From Mesobacillus sp. S13 (lineage in GTDB: Bacteria; Bacillota; Bacilli; Bacillales; Cytobacillaceae): a stretch of 64,000 nucleotides of DNA. Numbering within the stretch: position 1 is the stretch's first letter; each line of letters begins with the position of its first letter. The position numbers and the translations under genes are program-made. Positions 3,141-53,474 of this stretch are shown here, piece after piece. The stretch covers positions 3,925,001 through 3,989,000 of the forward strand of contig NZ_CP084622.1 of assembly GCF_020422885.1 (NCBI RefSeq), read 5' to 3'. The notes below the pieces were generated by a model. That model was not told the DNA's origin. It saw nothing but the letters and a program-made list of their open reading frames with translations, and made no database searches.

Positions 3141-4562
3141 TCACAAACTTTGTCCCTTTTCTACTGGTATTTCGATTATGAATTTTGTGCCTTTTCCCTG
3201 TTCGCTTTTCACAGAAATTTTCCCGTCATGCATCTGTACGAGCTGTTTGACAATGGATAAACCGAGACCGAATTCTCCAAACGGATTGCTCGTTCTCGAG
3301 ATATCTGCTTTGTAAAAGCGATGCCAGATTTTTTCGATTTCAGCCGGTTCAATGCCAATACCGGTATCCTCGATTTCAATCATCGTCTTTGGCCCAACCA
3401 TCCTGCCGCGAAGCCAGATTGTGCCGTTTTCAGTGAACTGGATACTGTTTTTCGTAATATTGATTAAAATCTGCAGAAGACGATCATAATCGGCATGGAC
3501 CATGGCTTTTTCATCTGCCTCAATTTCGATTCTGTTATGGCGTTCTTCTGCCTGAAACCCAAGCTGATCCTGGATGATCTCGAATACCTCGATTAATTCA
3601 ATGTCTTCTTTTACAAGCTGCACCTGGTTTGAGCGGATTTTATCATAATCAAGGTTCTCATTGACCAGTCGAATCAGCCGCTTCGTTTCCTGGCTGACCA
3701 GCTTGATGCCCCGCTCTTTTTCCTCCTCAGGAATCATATCGTTCCTGAGGCCCTCGATAATTCCGCTGATCGTCGTAAGCGGCGTCCTCAATTCATGAGA
3801 GACATCTGACATAAACTGGCGGCGCCGGTTTTCCAGGCTTTCGATTTCGGATTTCGATTCATTCAGCCTGCTCACCATACTGTTAAAATCGTTCGCCAAT
3901 TCACCGATTTCATCAAAATCCGACTTGGGCACTTTAACCGTATAGTCCCCTGCTGATACGGCGGATGTGGCTTCCTGAAGCTTTTTGATTCTATTGACAT
4001 GGATTCGCGCCAGAACCCAGCTTAGGAGGAACGAAACTCCCAGCGCAATCAGCATGGTATAAATCAAATACTTATTGATTTCCGTAATCATTTCCCGTGT
4101 CCCGCTGATTGGGGATGTCAGGAGAATGCCGCCAATGAAGTTTCCGCGATCAACATACGGCAAAACCACTAGGGTCACGGCACGGTCATACCGTTCGAGG
4201 TCATAATTTTTCACAATTGGCTTCCCGCTTGTAAGCTGACTCCACTCTTTTTCCGATAACTCAATCGCCGGCCCTCTCCATCTAATTGGATTCAGCAGCT
4301 GGATATTCTCATCGAATACACTGAATTGGATATCCCGGCCGAAAAGCACCCGGGCATATTGATTGATCACCTGGTCAGGACGTTCACCGCCCCGGTCAAG
4401 ATCGCGGAGGATATTTTCACCGTAAGAAATCAGCTCCTCCGTCTTATTTTTATAAACAAGCGTTTCCACATACTGTGTGAATACCAGGCTCAGGATTAGA
4501 AAGGCGACGATGATGATGCTGATATGGCTGATGAATTGCTGGTAGATATATTTAACCTTCAT
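3141..4562 (-). CDS. Sensor histidine kinase, two-component system
   Basis: A 473-residue membrane sensor kinase. TM1 is at residues 10-30, followed by an extracytoplasmic region of about 130 residues, TM2 near residues 165-185, a HAMP linker, a HisKA domain with phospho-acceptor motif VSHELRTPLTTISG around residue 255, and a HATPase domain with N box (NITKNSIQFT), G1 box (IEDTGIGI) and G2 box (FGLGLSIVKQ). Its ATG overlaps the stop of the upstream response regulator by four bases, so the pair is translationally coupled. The ligand is unknown. The catalytic motifs are intact. Confidence 0.93.
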   Translation of the reverse strand: MKVKYIYQQFISHISIIIVAFLILSLVFTQYVETLVYKNKTEELISYGENILRDLDRGGERPDQVINQYARVLFGRDIQFSVFDENIQLLNPIRWRGPAIELSEKEWSQLTSGKPIVKNYDLERYDRAVTLVVLPYVDRGNFIGGILLTSPISGTREMITEINKYLIYTMLIALGVSFLLSWVLARIHVNRIKKLQEATSAVSAGDYTVKVPKSDFDEIGELANDFNSMVSRLNESKSEIESLENRRRQFMSDVSHELRTPLTTISGIIEGLRNDMIPEEEKERGIKLVSQETKRLIRLVNENLDYDKIRSNQVQLVKEDIELIEVFEIIQDQLGFQAEERHNRIEIEADEKAMVHADYDRLLQILINITKNSIQFTENGTIWLRGRMVGPKTMIEIEDTGIGIEPAEIEKIWHRFYKADISRTSNPFGEFGLGLSIVKQLVQMHDGKISVKSEQGKGTKFIIEIPVEKGQSL

Positions 4563-23913: not shown

Positions 23914-25749
23914 TTACTTCACACTAGAATTAAAGTTATAGAAGAACTTAGCTGAGATCGAGCCATCTTCATTTTCCTTGATATCCGTTACGTGAATTCC
24001 GGAGTCAGCTGGTGTAGCACCATAGCCCTTCCAGAAGTAGTAAGAACCAGTGTGGACTTTACCGCTTACCGGAGTCAGCTTGCTTCCAGTCTTGAAGAAG
24101 TCAGTTGCGTCACCGCGGTTTAGGTTTCTTTCAAGATCATACTTGCCATCCGCTTGAAGGACAGATAGACCATAGTGTGTTACCACTTCACCATTGCTAG
24201 CAGTTTGTGACTGATTGAACTGGAAGCGCTTGTTCATCCAGTTTTCGACGTTATTCGGACGGAATCCAGCAGTCTGGTAAATATTGATGACATTTTCATC
24301 AACATGCCATGCCACTAATCCATGAGCGTCTTCACCCTGGCGTACCATCCCTTTATTGAAGCCCTCTTGCTGCATATTTTCGAACAGGAAGTATTCAGTT
24401 CCGTTTGAACCTGGAACTTCCATTTTAACGATGCCATTATCAGCATCGGCCGCATTAGCTGCCGGTAGAGTGATTTCCTGAACGCCGCTCTCAGGTGTTA
24501 CTTCGATTGGCTCTGCCCAGCCTAAGAAAATCTTAGAGAACGGATCGAAGTGAGTTGGAGAGTTTCCGGAATAAGCCGATTTATTAGGATAGCGCATCCA
24601 AGAACCGCCGGCCATCATCGAGTAGTTACCAACACCTTCAGATGAGTAAACAGTATCATAGAAATCAGGAAGTCCAAGTGCATGTCCAAACTCGTGCGCG
24701 TAAACGCCTGTTTGAGCAGGGAAAGGACCCGTTTTTAACTCTTCTTTATATGAGTTAGTTGCTGTATCAAAACCAGATACGTTACCGCCGATACCCGGCT
24801 GGATGTTGTAGTTGTTTACGACTACTTCATCGTATGTCATGTCCTCTGCAACTGTTTTGTTAATCCATTCACCCTGGGACATGCCAGCATGAGCGTCAGC
24901 TGGTTTGCCAGTTTCATAGTATTTCCCATAATAAAGCGCGCTTAGCAAACTCCACTTATGTGACCAGAACTGAGCTGGATCACGGCTGAATTCAGCGCCT
25001 GTGCCTTCATGGATTACGAAAATATTTGGAACTTCACCATCAATGGCATACTGTGAGAAGTCAACTTGGTCATCCGCTGCTTTTAACAGATCACGAATGA
25101 ACTCGCCTGTATGGGCATCTCCATTTACGTTACCAAGCTTATATACTCCACCTTCTGCATAAGTACCTTCCTGGTCAAGGTAATATGAAGCACCTCTAGG
25201 CATCTCTACCCAGGCGAAATCGGTATTTTCTTTACGAACAAGGTTTACCTTTCCATAACTTGATTCCTTGTAAGCATTTTGCATCGTACGGTTCTTTGGA
25301 ACGTCTGCACCATCATATTGCTCGAATTGCTCTAGCTCATACGGATTGTACTCAGTGCCAAAAATCAGGTCCTCATAATACTTGGCAGGTACTTGTCCTG
25401 GCATGTCGCCAACCGGCTCATCACCATCAGGATATTTAGCTAACAATACAAGCACAGGAACATCGCCCGTTGCTTTCTTATAATCGACATGATTATCTCC
25501 TGGCTGCTGGAACTTCGCACCTGTTTTAGCCATTTTCTCAGCAGGATCGGCTTTGGAAAGATCAATCCCTAATTCCTTTGCTCTATCAACTAGCTCCGGA
25601 GCTGCACCTACATGGTGAGCAAGGCTTAGTTCATATTTACTTTGCGGTTTGACAGCAGAATCAGTTGAGCTGACTCCAGCAAATACCGCACTTCCTGCCA
25701 AAGCTAGAGAAAGTGCTGATGTAGAAAGAACTTTTAACACATTATCCAC
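23914..25749 (-). CDS. Secreted M6 metalloprotease, immune inhibitor A type
   Basis: A 611-residue exported zinc protease. The signal peptide is about residues 1-24 (SLALAGSAVFA, AxA-like cleavage). The catalytic motif HEFGHALGLPD at residues 352-362 is the HExxHxxGxxD zinc site, and a Met-turn-like YSMMAGG follows. InhA of the B. cereus group cleaves host and matrix proteins; B. subtilis Vpr/Bpr-type roles do not apply. It is shorter than InhA1 (about 795 residues), lacking much of the C-terminal region. ATG at 25749 follows AGGGAGTGG. Three ScoC-like motifs lie upstream. In B. cereus PlcR and other RRNPP regulators act on the inhA family, and a PlcR-like gene is present 22 kb away in this window. 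Confidence 0.93.
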   Translation of the reverse strand: MDNVLKVLSTSALSLALAGSAVFAGVSSTDSAVKPQSKYELSLAHHVGAAPELVDRAKELGIDLSKADPAEKMAKTGAKFQQPGDNHVDYKKATGDVPVLVLLAKYPDGDEPVGDMPGQVPAKYYEDLIFGTEYNPYELEQFEQYDGADVPKNRTMQNAYKESSYGKVNLVRKENTDFAWVEMPRGASYYLDQEGTYAEGGVYKLGNVNGDAHTGEFIRDLLKAADDQVDFSQYAIDGEVPNIFVIHEGTGAEFSRDPAQFWSHKWSLLSALYYGKYYETGKPADAHAGMSQGEWINKTVAEDMTYDEVVVNNYNIQPGIGGNVSGFDTATNSYKEELKTGPFPAQTGVYAHEFGHALGLPDFYDTVYSSEGVGNYSMMAGGSWMRYPNKSAYSGNSPTHFDPFSKIFLGWAEPIEVTPESGVQEITLPAANAADADNGIVKMEVPGSNGTEYFLFENMQQEGFNKGMVRQGEDAHGLVAWHVDENVINIYQTAGFRPNNVENWMNKRFQFNQSQTASNGEVVTHYGLSVLQADGKYDLERNLNRGDATDFFKTGSKLTPVSGKVHTGSYYFWKGYGATPADSGIHVTDIKENEDGSISAKFFYNFNSSVK

Positions 25750-47900: not shown

Positions 47901-48404
47901 TTAAACTAATACTTTATTATGTTCATGCTGTGATGGCAAATCGGCTATCATTGTGCCATCTTGCGAATGCTGTGATGGCAGGTCGGCTATCATTGTGCCA
48001 TCTTGCGAATGCTGTGATGGCAAATCGACTATCATTGTGCCGCCTTGTGAATGCTGTGATGGCAGGTCGGCTATCATTGTGCCATCTTGCGAATGCTGTG
48101 ATGGCAAATCGGCTATCATCTTGCCGTCTTGCGAATGCTGTGATGGCAGGTCGGCTATCATTGTGCCATCTTGCGAATGCTGTGATGGCAAATCGGCTAT
48201 CATTGTGCCGTCTTGCGAATGCTGTGATGGCAAATCGGCTATCATTGTGCCATCTTGCGAATGCTGTGATGGCAAATTGGCTATCCTCTTGCCGTCTTGC
48301 GAATGCTGTGATGGCAGGTCGGTCAGGTTCTTATCGGCGGAACCTAAACACAACACTCCTGCAACAAAAGCTGCTATAAGGGGCAAAATCAATGTTCTCT
48401 TCAT
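47901..48404 (-). CDS. Exported peptide-pheromone precursor with ten tandem PapR-like units
   Basis: A 167-residue protein with an N-terminal signal peptide (MKRTLILPLIAAFVAGVLC). From residue 28 to the end it is ten 14-residue units, consensus ADLPSQHSQDGTMI. The heptapeptides are seven ADLPSQH plus one each of TDLPSQH, ANLPSQH and VDLPSQH; LPSQH is invariant in all ten. The last unit ends LPSQHEHNKVLV. It resembles PapR, whose mature peptide is ADLPFEF in B. cereus, but PapR is about 48 residues with a single copy. ATG at 48404 has AGGAGG; the gene lies 26 bp after the PlcR-like gene and is transcribed with it. Units alternate GAT TTG and GAC CTG codons for Asp-Leu, indicating selection on the protein sequence. 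Confidence 0.85.
   Translation of the reverse strand: MKRTLILPLIAAFVAGVLCLGSADKNLTDLPSQHSQDGKRIANLPSQHSQDGTMIADLPSQHSQDGTMIADLPSQHSQDGTMIADLPSQHSQDGKMIADLPSQHSQDGTMIADLPSQHSQGGTMIVDLPSQHSQDGTMIADLPSQHSQDGTMIADLPSQHEHNKVLV
47922..48330 (-). repeat. Coding tandem repeat, 42-bp period, about ten units
   Basis: GCTGTGATGGCA recurs at 42-bp intervals from about 47926. The repeat encodes the 14-residue units of the gene at 47901. As 42 is a multiple of 3, other frames on both strands also stay open (160 and 157 codons on the plus strand), but only the minus frame has a ribosome site and a signal peptide. Confidence 0.95.
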
Positions 48405-48430
48405 TTTATACCTCCTACGCCGGTAAAACA

Positions 48431-49318
48431 TCAACAATACTTCAATAATTTTTCCATCTCATCTCTTACTAAACTAGCAAACTTCTCATTTTTCTGCAGC
48501 TTGAATATCGTGACTGCTTTTTCAAGATATTCCTTACCTTTGTTTTCTTTACCCAATTTAATGTAATTCATGCCTGTTTGGTAACAAAGTTCTCCAAATA
48601 AATACATGTTTTCTTCATATATACAGTTATCGATTCCTTTGCTGGAATAGATGAGGGATTCTTCATATCTCTCAAGCTTTGATAATGCCTGGGCAAGCCC
48701 ATAGAGAATCCTTAGCCAGATTCTTGAATCTTGGACTTGAGGGAGCTCTGTCAATTGGTTCAAAGCTTTTTGAAAAAGCCCGACAGCCTCGTCCAGGTTC
48801 CCGCTATCCTTTTCAATGATTGCCATGCTCGTCAAAATCTCAATTTCCCGTTCTGTCATTGCAGCCTCTTTCTGATGGGTCATGTCCAAAGCCTGAACAA
48901 GCAGGTCAATGGATTTCTGTCTATCATCTTCCAGGTAATAGCTGCATATTCCCTGGTGCCATACCAGGAATTGATTGTATGATGTATGTTTGAACAGTGG
49001 ATTATCCTGTTCCTTCTGGATGATTTCATTGATTGCGGCATAATCCCGTTCTCTTTTATACTTTTTTATTAACTCCGTAACCGCGATCGCGTAATTGTAT
49101 GTATCAGTAGAAGCGATATCGAAAAAATGGTTAAGCTCAACTTCAAGCTTTGTTGCCATTTTTAATAATTGATCGATTGTTGGATATTTCTCTTCTTTTT
49201 CAAATTGAACGATATCCTCTTCAGAACAGATCCCTTCAGCCAACTGTGCCTCAGTCAAACCTTTAAAAACCCTAGAAGACCTAAGAATTTTCCCGAAGTT
49301 ATATCCAACCAGGCTCAT
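48431..49318 (-). CDS. PlcR/NprR-like (RRNPP) transcriptional regulator
   Basis: A 295-residue cytoplasmic regulator. The N-terminal HTH (about residues 10-65, GLTEAQLAEGICSEEDIVQFE) is followed by five to six TPR repeats (for example LDEAVGLFQKALNQL, YEESLIYSSKGID, KGKEYLEKAVTIFKLQ). PlcR is 285 residues with the same HTH position and TPR spacing, and the corresponding GLTxxQLxExIC segment is shared. Such regulators bind an imported heptapeptide pheromone through the TPR domain. The adjacent 47901 gene encodes the likely cognate peptide. Promoter words TTAACA and TAATTA lie upstream near 49330-49375. The targets are unknown. Confidence 0.9.
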   Translation of the reverse strand: MSLVGYNFGKILRSSRVFKGLTEAQLAEGICSEEDIVQFEKEEKYPTIDQLLKMATKLEVELNHFFDIASTDTYNYAIAVTELIKKYKRERDYAAINEIIQKEQDNPLFKHTSYNQFLVWHQGICSYYLEDDRQKSIDLLVQALDMTHQKEAAMTEREIEILTSMAIIEKDSGNLDEAVGLFQKALNQLTELPQVQDSRIWLRILYGLAQALSKLERYEESLIYSSKGIDNCIYEENMYLFGELCYQTGMNYIKLGKENKGKEYLEKAVTIFKLQKNEKFASLVRDEMEKLLKYC

Positions 49319-49429
49319 CCCCTACACCCCATTTAATAGTAATTATATTTATATTATCACAATGTTAATAACTTTTAAAAATCGGAAGAGAGTACCCGGA
49401 TGCAAATTCTGTATTTCCCAATCCAGGCG

Positions 49430-49588
49430 TTATTTTAGATAAGTGAAATAGGGCAGTATCAGCACAGCCATGGAAAGCAGGCCAACTACAATCGCTCCTG
49501 CCTTGTTTTTTTGCTTCCAGATCGTCACTGCAAATGCGAGGGAGTACAACGATACCAATAGCACCCCTCCCCAAATCCAATAAATCAT
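49430..49588 (-). CDS. Small two-TM protein of the ger operon (D-subunit-like)
   Basis: A 52-residue protein, MIYWIWGGVLLVSLYSLAFAVTIWKQ (read in parts), with two TM segments separated by KQKNKAG, ending PYFTYLK. ATG at 49588 lies one base beyond the gerC stop at 49590, so it is the last gene of the ger operon. Small two-TM D proteins are known for some Bacillus germinant-receptor operons and modulate receptor activity. Length and topology fit; sequence similarity was not tested. Confidence 0.6.
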   Translation of the reverse strand: MIYWIWGGVLLVSLYSLAFAVTIWKQKNKAGAIVVGLLSMAVLILPYFTYLK

Positions 49589-49589
49589 T

Positions 49590-50843
49590 TTAATCCCTCA
49601 CCTCCCGCAGCTCTGGCAGCTTGGTCTGCCTGCCAAACTCGCCAAATCGGATATCAACATTCACATTGATTTCAGCATCGGGATACGATTTCATCCAGTC
49701 AAAATCCCTGAATTCCTGGAGAGTCCAAAATCCCTTCCTAATCGGAACCGACAAATGGAAAGTATCGCCTTTGAATTCTTCTTGAGTATATTTAATGTAT
49801 TGTGTTAGATGTTCTTCCATTGTTTTTGTCATCGACTTCTTCAATTCAGCTACTTTATCATTATTTTTTGCAAAATTGACCATACTCGGATCACTGAGTA
49901 TTTCAACATAAACCGGAACCCTTATATCTATAATTGCTTTACCGTTTCGCTGCTTGAAGTCATAGCTATTCTTCCTTTGTTTAGCGACTCTTGCTGAGAT
50001 TCGATACCTTTCATCAAATGGATCCTTGAAAGTCGTCTTAAAATCTTCTAATTCCCAAGTATTGTCCAGCAGGGAGGAGATCCGTGTTTCTTCTCCTGTT
50101 ATTTTTCCAATCATCATTCCTTCTTTAAAAACAGCAGATCCCATGAACTGTGTGTCATTTGTTTTTCCGCCAAATTGGACTTCCCCTGCCATGAAGTCAT
50201 CATCAGAAATAATCTCTTTATCTCTTTCCTTCTCAGTTGAAGCATAAATCGCCAGGAATAAATCTGCGTCAGTTTCTGCCACCTGGAAAAAGCCATTCAA
50301 ATCAGTATTCGGAATCATTCCTGTCTCTTTTCCCCTCCTGATCATGAACTCAAAATATTTATGTGGCCTGGTCTCAAGTAATGGGTTATTGTTCAAGATG
50401 AATTTTTCGGCACTTTCTTTTGTTATGACCAATTCTGTGGTCCTTTTAATTTCCCTGTCTTTCGCTGCTGAGTAGATCACCCTGATAAAATCAGGTTTCC
50501 TCGCTAACTCCTCCGATACAATGATGACACTTAATAAGTCATAGGAAATTTCCTTTGAGATGACTGTATTCGCTGTATTCCGTGAACTGATGAAATCATC
50601 GGCCACAAGCGAAATGACTTCCTCCGGAGATTCAGTTGATCCACCTCCCGATTGCTGCGAACCTACCTCAGGATTGGCGACTAAATACGTCACCTTGATT
50701 TTCCCTTCCTTTTCGTGTGCATCAAGACCAATACCAATCACATAGGCTTTTTGGTCAAGTTCGGTCTTATCCCAACAGCCTGTCAAAGAAAAGGTAATGA
50801 TGATCATCATAGAGATTTTAATTAGATTCTTGAACTGTCCCAT
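49590..50843 (-). CDS. Germinant receptor C subunit (Ger(x)C lipoprotein)
   Basis: A 417-residue spore-membrane lipoprotein. The signal peptide ends in SLTGCWDKTEL (lipidated Cys near residue 23), the highly typical GerxC N-terminus, and the GerC domains follow (VIGIGLDAHEKEGK, PHKYFEFMIRRGKE, WTLQEFRDFDWMKSYPDAEI). It acts outside the inner spore membrane with the A and B subunits. ATG at 50843 follows GGGGAGATT. It overlaps the gerB end by 26 bases. Confidence 0.92.
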   Translation of the reverse strand: MGQFKNLIKISMMIIITFSLTGCWDKTELDQKAYVIGIGLDAHEKEGKIKVTYLVANPEVGSQQSGGGSTESPEEVISLVADDFISSRNTANTVISKEISYDLLSVIIVSEELARKPDFIRVIYSAAKDREIKRTTELVITKESAEKFILNNNPLLETRPHKYFEFMIRRGKETGMIPNTDLNGFFQVAETDADLFLAIYASTEKERDKEIISDDDFMAGEVQFGGKTNDTQFMGSAVFKEGMMIGKITGEETRISSLLDNTWELEDFKTTFKDPFDERYRISARVAKQRKNSYDFKQRNGKAIIDIRVPVYVEILSDPSMVNFAKNNDKVAELKKSMTKTMEEHLTQYIKYTQEEFKGDTFHLSVPIRKGFWTLQEFRDFDWMKSYPDAEINVNVDIRFGEFGRQTKLPELREVRD

Positions 50844-51927
50844 TTTTAAAATCTCCCCGTATCTTCGCAATTAGCCACATAAGCGGCGGCAGTAAAAAAA
50901 ATACCGGACTGACCATCATCAATATGTTTTGCCTCATGTTATAAAGTACGATTGATGGGCTGTCTGGTGCGAGACCAAATAAAATGATCAGTGTCGTTAT
51001 TAACGGTATCAAATATTCAGATTCCTTAATATTCAGGATTCCTGCCAGAAGTACCGCACTGATATATAAATAAAATGAAAACCTTATGAAAGTAGCCACG
51101 AGCCAAAATGGGAAGAATAAGGTTTCTACATTTTGCAGGAAGCCAACCTCGATATACCTGATTGTTTCATGGAAAGGGTAACTTAGCATCTCGGCCGTTG
51201 AGTAATCAAAAAGCATCACAAATGTGACCATTGCCAGGCTAATTTCCAGTGTGACCATAATCAATCCCAAAATCGTCCCTTTTTTAAAATCCTTGAAAGA
51301 TACTACCAGCGGAGCAATCAACCCGATAAAAAACAAATCCGAAAAGATGGATACATTTTTGGCAGAGGCCTTAAGTATCTCCATACTGCCTTCACCTAAA
51401 ATCGGAAAAATATAATCAAAGTGGCCAGTATTCAAACTGACTAGTATCGCAATGAATAATGTGATTTTCAAATAGGGCAGCAATACCCAAGCCACAGTTC
51501 CAATCTGCTCAATTCCCCTCTTAGCTCCATAGCCGCAGACCAGCATCAAAATGACATAAATGATACTGGGAGGAGTCTTCGTGAAATACATGGTGCCAAT
51601 TATATCAACGTATATACCGGTATCAACGGTAATAGAAGCAACTCCTGCCACCAGGAGAAGAATAGAAATGATTGTCCCGAAAAACTTTCCAAATATGTGG
51701 ATGATGACCTCATGCAGATTCTTGCCTTTATGAGCTGACAAAACTTTAATCAACAGGATGACCGGGATAAAAGCCATTACGCCCATCAGCAAAACGACGA
51801 TCCATCCGGCGTTCCTTGCATTTTCGTAAATAATTGTGGGAGTATCGTCACTAAGCTTGGTACCAATTGTTAAGGCAATGATCGCCACATATTCTTTTAT
51901 CCCAATTTTCCCCTCGTTTCGTTTCAT
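50818..51927 (-). CDS. Germinant receptor B subunit (GerAB/spore permease)
   Basis: A 369-residue membrane protein with about ten TM segments of the APC-like spore permease family (GKIGIKEYVAIIALTIGTKLSDDTPT start, GAKRGIEQIGTVAWVLLPYLKITLF). The B subunit is thought to bind germinant and form the transmembrane sensor. Its start overlaps the gerA stop by four bases. Assignment is to a ger family locus; the ligand cannot be inferred. Confidence 0.92.
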   Translation of the reverse strand: MKRNEGKIGIKEYVAIIALTIGTKLSDDTPTIIYENARNAGWIVVLLMGVMAFIPVILLIKVLSAHKGKNLHEVIIHIFGKFFGTIISILLLVAGVASITVDTGIYVDIIGTMYFTKTPPSIIYVILMLVCGYGAKRGIEQIGTVAWVLLPYLKITLFIAILVSLNTGHFDYIFPILGEGSMEILKASAKNVSIFSDLFFIGLIAPLVVSFKDFKKGTILGLIMVTLEISLAMVTFVMLFDYSTAEMLSYPFHETIRYIEVGFLQNVETLFFPFWLVATFIRFSFYLYISAVLLAGILNIKESEYLIPLITTLIILFGLAPDSPSIVLYNMRQNILMMVSPVFFLLPPLMWLIAKIRGDFKNGTVQESN

Positions 51928-53474
51928 TGCTTATGCCCCATCGCTTTTTTTTGTGAATCAGAGGTTTTCAAAAATCCCGGGCGGAGTTTCTCATTTTTCA
52001 CAAGCCGCCGAAAAATAGTATCCTTGGACGATTTATAACTTGGAGACAACGGTGCTAAATATGGAACACCGAAGGATTTGAGTGAAACCAAATAAAAAAT
52101 GCCTGCAGCAAAAAATGCTGTCATCCCATATATCCCCAAGAATGCTGCACTCAGGATAAAAGCAAAACGGATGAGCCGTACAGCGAAGTTCAGGCTTAAA
52201 TCTGCAACCGCAAAGGAACTCAGGCCGCCTAGTGCCACCACAATAATGACAATCGGGGAGATGATATTCGCCTCAACGGCAGCCTGTCCAAGAATGAGCG
52301 CACCAACAATACCGATCGTCGGACCGATTGGACTGGGCACACGCAGTCCCGCTTCTCGGATCAGCTCAAAAGCAGCTTCCATAACCAAGATTTCAATCAC
52401 TGCAGGGAATGGCACTTTCTCTCGGGAAGAGGCAATCGCAAGCAGTAAATCCGGCGGAATCATTTCCGCATGAAAGGTGGTAATCGCAATATAGATGGCT
52501 GAAGTGAAAAGCGTAATGAATAGCGCAACCATTCTTAAGGCTCTAGTGAAATTGCCATAATGAATTCTCAAGTAGTGATCTTCGGGACTATGGAAAAAAG
52601 ACCAGAACGTCGCAGGCAGAACCAGGCTATCAGGTGAGTTGTCCATAAGCAAAGCAATATAGCCATCTTCAAGGAAAGAGGCGGCCCGATCAGGACGTTC
52701 CGTTGTCAACACACTTGGAAACAGCGAGTAATTCCGCTCCTCAATGTATTCCTCCAGCAGCGAAAGGTTTTGAAGGGCATTAACCTCAAGACTGCCCAAT
52801 CGCTCCTTGATATTGTCCACCAGCTTTTCATTGGCAAGACCACGAATATACAGAATGTAAACATCATTATGCGAGCGCTGGGATACTTCGATCACTTCGA
52901 CAATCAAATTCTCATTCTTGATTTTCTTCCTGAGCAGGGAGATGTTTGCCACTACTTTTTCATTGAAGGCCTCTTTTGGTCCTTTAATTAAAATTTCGCT
53001 CTCGGGTTTTTCAATGGCCCTGCTCTGGAAATCAGGACAATCAAGGATATATCCCTTTGCTTCACCATCTAATATCAGCAGGGCATTGCCTTTATTCACA
53101 TCCTTGACAGCATCCTTGAAAATCTCAATTTCATGGACCATTTGGATGGAAACAACATCTTTTACCCTTTTATTTGCCGAGGTGTTTTCCGTCAAAGGCT
53201 TGAGGATGTTTTCTTCTATACTCTTAACATCTGAGATTGTGCTGATGAATATAAGAGCTGCATTTTTACCGAAGCCCTCAAGGTGCATTTCCCGCAATTT
53301 TACGTCCTTGTTGTCAGGAATGCTGTAGAGTTTTTTGATCACTGACAGATTGTCTACAAGATTGCGTGAAAACTTCTGATTCTTCAGGTCATCCTGCTCT
53401 CCAGTCAGCTTTTCCGCCGAGGGAGAAGGTTGTTTTTGCGGTTTGTTGATCAGCCTGAGCATTTCCTTTAACAA
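51924..53474 (-). CDS. Germinant receptor A subunit (GerA family)
   Basis: A 516-residue protein with a large soluble N-terminal domain and four to five TM segments in the C-terminal half. GerA hallmarks include RPDRAASFLEDGYIALLMDNSPDSLVLPATFWSFF read in parts, FPAVIEILVMEAAFELIREAGLRVPSPIG and LGGLSSFAVADLSLNFAVRLIRF. TTG at 53474 has GGGAG upstream. It begins the A-B-C-D operon. A sporulation-specific (sigma-G) promoter is expected; TGTATG-16-CATAGCA around 53515-53560 is only a weak candidate. Confidence 0.92.
   Translation of the reverse strand: MLKEMLRLINKPQKQPSPSAEKLTGEQDDLKNQKFSRNLVDNLSVIKKLYSIPDNKDVKLREMHLEGFGKNAALIFISTISDVKSIEENILKPLTENTSANKRVKDVVSIQMVHEIEIFKDAVKDVNKGNALLILDGEAKGYILDCPDFQSRAIEKPESEILIKGPKEAFNEKVVANISLLRKKIKNENLIVEVIEVSQRSHNDVYILYIRGLANEKLVDNIKERLGSLEVNALQNLSLLEEYIEERNYSLFPSVLTTERPDRAASFLEDGYIALLMDNSPDSLVLPATFWSFFHSPEDHYLRIHYGNFTRALRMVALFITLFTSAIYIAITTFHAEMIPPDLLLAIASSREKVPFPAVIEILVMEAAFELIREAGLRVPSPIGPTIGIVGALILGQAAVEANIISPIVIIVVALGGLSSFAVADLSLNFAVRLIRFAFILSAAFLGIYGMTAFFAAGIFYLVSLKSFGVPYLAPLSPSYKSSKDTIFRRLVKNEKLRPGFLKTSDSQKKAMGHKQ

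Follow-up and report, generated by a model that had tools for sequence, protein, structure and literature searches.

A probable multi-copy pheromone system formed by a PlcR-like regulator and a ten-copy PapR-like precursor in Mesobacillus sp. S13

A gene for a PlcR-like regulator followed directly by a gene whose product strings together ten near-identical short peptides raises the question of whether the downstream product is a pheromone precursor in which the signal has been multiplied, and whether the regulator is its receptor. The pair lies within a 64,000-nucleotide stretch of the Mesobacillus sp. S13 genome (contig NZ_CP084622.1, positions 3,925,001 to 3,989,000), referred to here as the window; positions are those of the window and features are on the reverse strand unless stated otherwise. 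The regulator gene (48431..49318) encodes 295 residues with an HTH followed by a TPR domain (RNPP_C), consistent with a PlcR-like receptor, and after an intergenic gap of 26 nt (48405..48430) the precursor gene (47901..48404) encodes 167 residues carrying ten ADLPSQH-type peptides; the ORF coordinates reproduce both lengths and the gap as given in the initial annotation. The short gap is consistent with a single transcript, and the two genes are probably cotranscribed. Upstream of the regulator lies a conserved, promoter-like element of putative function, AACATTGTGATAATATA (49350..49366), and beyond it, together spanning 49430-53474, GerAC spore-germination-type genes and a 52-aa membrane-like ORF, a gene order that aligned upstream regions suggest is common to most Mesobacillus relatives.

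Sequence and model comparisons assign the regulator to the RNPP family, with a Pfam RNPP_C match of 72.2 bits (cut-off 26.5), PlcR as the best solved-structure match (E 1e-19) and an AlphaFold model that matches PlcR along its length. The TPR peptide-binding domain of the RNPP/RRNPPA receptors is present, as is an N-terminal HTH, which is spanned by both the sequence and the model alignments to PlcR; the Pfam HTH_3 match itself falls below its cut-off (17.2 vs 23 bits). One feature may count against a receptor of this type: PlcR residues Asn159 and Asn201, one of which is presumably the groove Asn of the family, align with Thr163 and Gly207 of the regulator, and in the clade described below these positions mostly lack Asn, being Thr in 46/70 and Gly in 67/70 members. 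In RNPP family receptors a conserved Asn in the groove holds the peptide backbone (PMC3601957, in its available text).

The precursor begins with a basic start and a hydrophobic stretch (hydropathy score 2.8), giving a predicted signal peptide of approximately residues 1-23 (MKRT...GSA, 48336..48404) with the cleavage site after GSA placed by eye. By these N-terminal features it resembles the Sec-exported small propeptides encoded next to receptor genes in this family, and its possession of at least two peptide copies within one predicted exported product beside a receptor gene is the arrangement of multi-copy RRNPPA propeptides. The tandem array (47925..48323) had been described as ten units of 14 residues; ten cores are indeed present, but only nine belong to full 14-aa units, the tenth being a 7-aa core followed by a C-terminal tail, EHNKVLV (47904..47924), and similar tails occur in many relatives' precursors. 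Tandem Repeats Finder reported a single array at 47925-48316 with a period of 42 bp, 9.3 copies and 90% matches. Spacers are of the SQDGTMI type, and the heptapeptide tally agrees with the earlier one, ADLPSQH accounting for seven of the ten and TDLPSQH, ANLPSQH and VDLPSQH for one each. Antisense to the array is a 157-aa ORF (47953-48426, forward strand) with a repeated PSCECCDG, to which the precursor search gave a weak match; it is probably a by-product because the 42-bp unit contains no stop in that frame. The Asp-Leu codons of the units alternate between GAT TTG and GAC CTG, which had been read as a sign of selection on the peptide. This reading was rejected because pN/pS within the window gene is alike for core (0.17) and spacer (0.19), and the alternation looks like two linked codon states propagated by unit duplication. 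That the window gene's core is no more constrained than its spacer was counted against the pheromone reading; it is comparison with other species, and not the window gene, that indicates constraint on the peptide.

Within the genus, 20 of 21 genomes carry the regulator, and exactly these 20 also gave a match to the precursor, with both genes missing from G017. Complete arrays held 2 to 12 copies, and arrays were interrupted by Ns in L008 and by a contig end in L017 and L019. With assembly breaks or Ns inside the arrays of L008, L017, L019 and L048, copy numbers from short-read assemblies are to be taken as lower bounds. In the family set a core-bearing ORF lay 0-62 nt downstream of all 64 distinct regulators scoring above 300 bits, with at least two copies in 62 of them, among the matches listed. 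A stricter analysis of the family and order sets together, the latter sampling 397 genomes from which the stronger matches and part of the weak ones were fetched, used one fixed search rule requiring the precursor to start within 450 nt downstream of the regulator, after removal of duplicates by the last 150 regulator residues. Among the matches listed, 78 distinct regulators scored at least 300 bits; 76 of them had a precursor downstream, and in 69 cases it was multi-copy. In 1560 trials with shuffled downstream DNA one single-copy match and no multi-copy match appeared, and on the reverse strand a precursor was found for 0/78 regulators. The search for both genes as a pair, recommended by the initial annotation, therefore supports its pairing of a PlcR-type regulator with a multi-copy PapR-like precursor, the two being kept together across relatives. 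For 61 lower-scoring regulators the rule found a precursor downstream in 7 (one with two copies) and on the reverse strand in 2, so that the precursors of some paralogues lie elsewhere and would be missed. The paralogous regulators L023, L024, L027 and L029 have single-copy precursors of 38-44 aa beyond the regulator, on the opposite strand and convergent, which end in DLPNQH or DLPFEH; DLPFEH closely resembles the ADLPFEF of PapR. A protein-database search with the precursor returned only one relative and genome searches returned many more; the precursor search matched 36/193 genomes, some low-scoring matches (for example L057, L058 and L061) being unrelated repetitive proteins.

In a tree of 105 deduplicated regulators of at least 250 bits, among the matches listed, 70 formed a clade (support 100/99) in which 69 systems are multi-copy, their arrays ranging from 2 to 16 copies; the one remaining row has an assembly gap. 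The clade covers three family codes (f1, f30 and f42), and the 35 rows outside it comprised 13 with one copy, one with two (L209) and 21 with none by the search rule. A single origin of the multi-copy clade is likely, though not proven given the midpoint root and the long branches of some rows. The highest copy number among the systems compared belongs to Cytobacillus purgationiresistens (L086), in which 16 copies of GLPTQH are encoded downstream of the regulator ending at 3388 and the array ends at the stop codon; in this system and in L084 some units run GLPTQH-GLPTQH with no spacer. Single-copy relatives (L187, L188 and L190-L194) have 39-aa precursors that end exactly at GLPSQH-stop or GLPNQH-stop, several starting 150-158 nt downstream of the regulator. 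Cross-talk between genera is conceivable because the GLPSQH-ending precursors share LPSQH with the window peptide.

Copy number differs even between close relatives (10 in G000, 5 in G003 and 6 in G005), and spacers of one precursor resemble each other more (0.71) than spacers of different precursors do (0.49), a mark of ongoing unit duplication. The last copy in L011 and L012 lacks the final His (DLPSQD and DLPSQL), as if terminal copies decay. Variation of this kind would also arise if the array were a neutral product of replication slippage in which one copy is enough and the others have no function of their own. However, all 69 readable arrays of the clade retain at least two copies, among the matches listed, and core residues are constant in nearly all copies while the spacers diverge, so that a purely neutral array appears unlikely. 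A functional counterpart, which we offer tentatively and regard as possible but somewhat doubtful, is that multiplication became permanent after one origin, with no reversion to one copy among the 69 systems, and that gain and loss of units would act as an evolvable gain control setting the quorum threshold while promoter and receptor stay untouched.

Core statistics were taken from 70 multi-copy systems, namely the 69 of the clade and L209, in which the core mostly reads [D/G/E]-[L/I/Y/M/F]-P-[S/T/V/P]-[Q/E]-H. The search pattern fixes Pro and His and restricts the residue before Pro, leaving the decayed units of L011 and L012 uncounted, so that conservation at these three positions is partly built in. 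Across the 21 DLPSQH systems entropy was 0.00 bits at Ser and 0.04 bits at Gln, compared with mostly 2 to 3.4 bits at spacer positions, and the two residues before LPSQH varied rarely (Asp 0.96, Ala 0.88). The last copy ends at His-stop in 31 of the 70 multi-copy systems and, because these and the single-copy relatives end exactly there, the mature peptide very likely terminates in His and would approximate ADLPSQH. Release of internal copies would then need cuts on both sides. The head-to-tail units of L084 and L086, together with the His-stop ends, make it very likely that the essential part comprises six or seven residues at most. Counted against the pheromone reading is the position of the window cores, internal and ahead of a 7-residue tail, unlike that of PapR. 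With three of the ten window cores differing, the variants TDLPSQH, ANLPSQH and VDLPSQH might carry different messages, making the precursor a source of mixed signals and not only an amplifier, and the available text of one report describes two different peptides of the single Phr3T propeptide that bind with different affinities (PMC11343458). Differences in the 21 DLPSQH systems are nevertheless rare and fall mostly in the two residues before a near-constant LPSQH, and mixed signalling is on this evidence quite improbable.

Peptide and receptor residues were compared in 83 pairs. Glu at core residue 5 was accompanied by Asn or Ser at receptor position 243 in 15/15 pairs, and any other residue by Glu or Asp in 67/68, the exception being L151 (GIPSQH, Ser243); position 243 aligns with PlcR Gln237. 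Gly at core residue 1 went with Glu or Asp at receptor position 250 in 34/34 pairs, and where core residue 1 was Asp or Glu the receptor residue there was non-acidic in 40/43. By plain correlation columns 243 and 250 rank first among 161 columns. With the tested columns masked during tree building, a Pagel test of residue 1 against column 250 gave a likelihood-ratio statistic of 24.05, first of the 97 columns with at least five rows per acidic state and followed by column 214 with 19.01, whilst residue 5, tested against column 243 only, gave 12.71. Uncorrected for the number of columns, these three values correspond on a chi-square distribution with 4 d.f. to approximately 8e-5, 8e-4 and 0.013. 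An independent-pairs test was not significant (residue 1, about three of five pairs agreeing and none disagreeing; residue 5, one of two agreeing), and the switch at position 5 amounts in practice to a single event. A further departure from the position-243 pattern is the distant paralogue L027 (DLPFEH), in which the equivalent residue, read by eye, is Glu. Co-variation is thus supportive of a pheromone-receptor model but does not amount to proof. That the repeat protein instead functions uncleaved, as a secreted metal-binding or surface protein with His residues might, and is merely controlled by the regulator, would fit its export-type appearance, its repetitiveness and the one His per unit, but is hardly credible when single-copy relatives comprise little beyond a signal peptide plus a lone core that runs up to the stop, 31/70 arrays stop exactly at a core, spacers and copy number vary freely as the core does not, and core residues co-vary with those of the receptor.

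The locus is very likely a real multi-copy pheromone system, and we have high confidence in its reading as a PlcR-like receptor with a ten-copy PapR-like precursor that would be processed to LPSQH-ending signals. By analogy with PlcR-PapR and the tandem Phr propeptides, the precursor would be exported by the Sec pathway and cut into several short peptides ending in LPSQH, internal copies through two-sided cuts; an oligopeptide permease would take the peptide back in, and it would bind the TPR groove of the receptor. Many copies would presumably raise the amount of signal per translated precursor. The genome encodes six SBP_bac_5 oligopeptide-binding proteins and two M4 proteases, so that candidate importers and proteases exist, none of them linked to the system.

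Targets of the regulator were sought through its own promoter region. Most of the 22 upstream regions aligned share the element AACATTGTGATAATATA, and its sole match in the window at up to three mismatches is the promoter of the pair itself. Genome-wide, eight matches at up to two mismatches were found compared with one for a reversed control pattern, the only exact match again being the pair's own promoter. Five of the seven other matches were inspected and formed no coherent target set, and the element may be merely a core promoter. A PlcR box (consensus from PMC2464732), as expected of the PlcR regulon in the narrow sense, was not found upstream of the pair, and the window contains five sites with two mismatches against 5.83 expected, a chance frequency. 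The initial annotation had suggested that the regulator could control an M6 protease. The M6-like ORF (23914-25749), with a Peptidase_M6 match of 49.8 bits at residues 341-408, lies 22 kb from the pair, and neither the promoter element nor the PlcR-box search in the window supported it as a target.

Taken together, the quorum-sensing systems compared here form a natural series in copy number per precursor, against which the single-copy relatives from outside the clade can be set. Such a series would make testable whether copy number sets the dose and threshold of the signal, and why tandem pheromones persist. It also points to a blind spot in detection: RRNPP_detector, according to the available text of its description, has an upper propeptide size limit of 100 aa (PMC10075063), and 29 of the 70 multi-copy precursors are longer than this if the first possible start is used, or a few fewer with a later start. 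Assemblies that break inside arrays add to this blind spot.

Among known systems the yeast alpha-factor precursor likewise holds several copies of one signal separated by spacers, a likeness limited to copies and spacers, the proteins, processing and receptor being unrelated. PlcR is activated by PapR, and the PlcR-PapR system of the Bacillus cereus group resembles the present pair in receptor fold, in domain order, in a precursor gene directly downstream and in the first four residues shared by ADLPFEF and the window peptide. As described in the available text of PMC3519770, the PapR precursor is short (45 aa) and carries one copy of its peptide, at the C-terminus, whereas in the window precursor ten His-ending copies lie internally and a tail follows, and no PlcR box occurs above chance in the window. 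The single peptide at the extreme C-terminus that marks PapR in the narrow sense is not found and, because of the ten internal copies and the 7-residue tail, the precursor is called PapR-like in its use and is not filed as PapR. The PlcRa-PapRa system of B. cereus resembles the present pair in that a PlcR paralogue is served by a heptapeptide internal to a longer, 93-aa precursor, but differs in having one copy, CSIPYEY, and a precursor gene upstream of the regulator (PMC3519770, same text). Gene-internal multiplication of a pheromone, as first proposed for this locus, is supported here but is not new. The principle is already known because repeated propeptides have been published for RRNPPA systems including PlcR-type ones, and two systems have been shown to mature (PMC9765709, PMC11343458 and PMC5199041, as far as their available text goes). 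In those texts, the description of repeated Phr autoinducers dates from 2016 (PMC5199041), and up to six peptide copies were reported in AimR, NprR, PlcR and Rap propeptides, with repeats in 3/15 outsize PlcR propeptides (Felipe-Ruiz 2022, PMC9765709); these share with the window precursor several mature-peptide copies per propeptide, but at no more than six copies compared with up to 16 in the 69-system clade. The tandem propeptides of Phr3T and Phr105 from Bacillus phages have internal copies that are freed by extracellular proteases, both active, two-sided cuts having been proposed and tested for Phr105, and up to eight copies in other Phr are mentioned (PMC11343458, available text). Maturation is thus known there and predicted here, and those systems differ in their two copies and in Rap receptors that lack an HTH. 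A literature search on the peptide cores, covering titles and the starts of abstracts of open-licence papers, returned nothing on bacterial signalling, and the available text of that literature, including PMC13001229, PMC12700828 and PMC7425212, contains no description of the clade, which does not establish its absence from print. What appears new is a PlcR-type clade in which multiple copies are the rule, with up to 16 per precursor, and the system is notable because copy numbers exceed those found reported.
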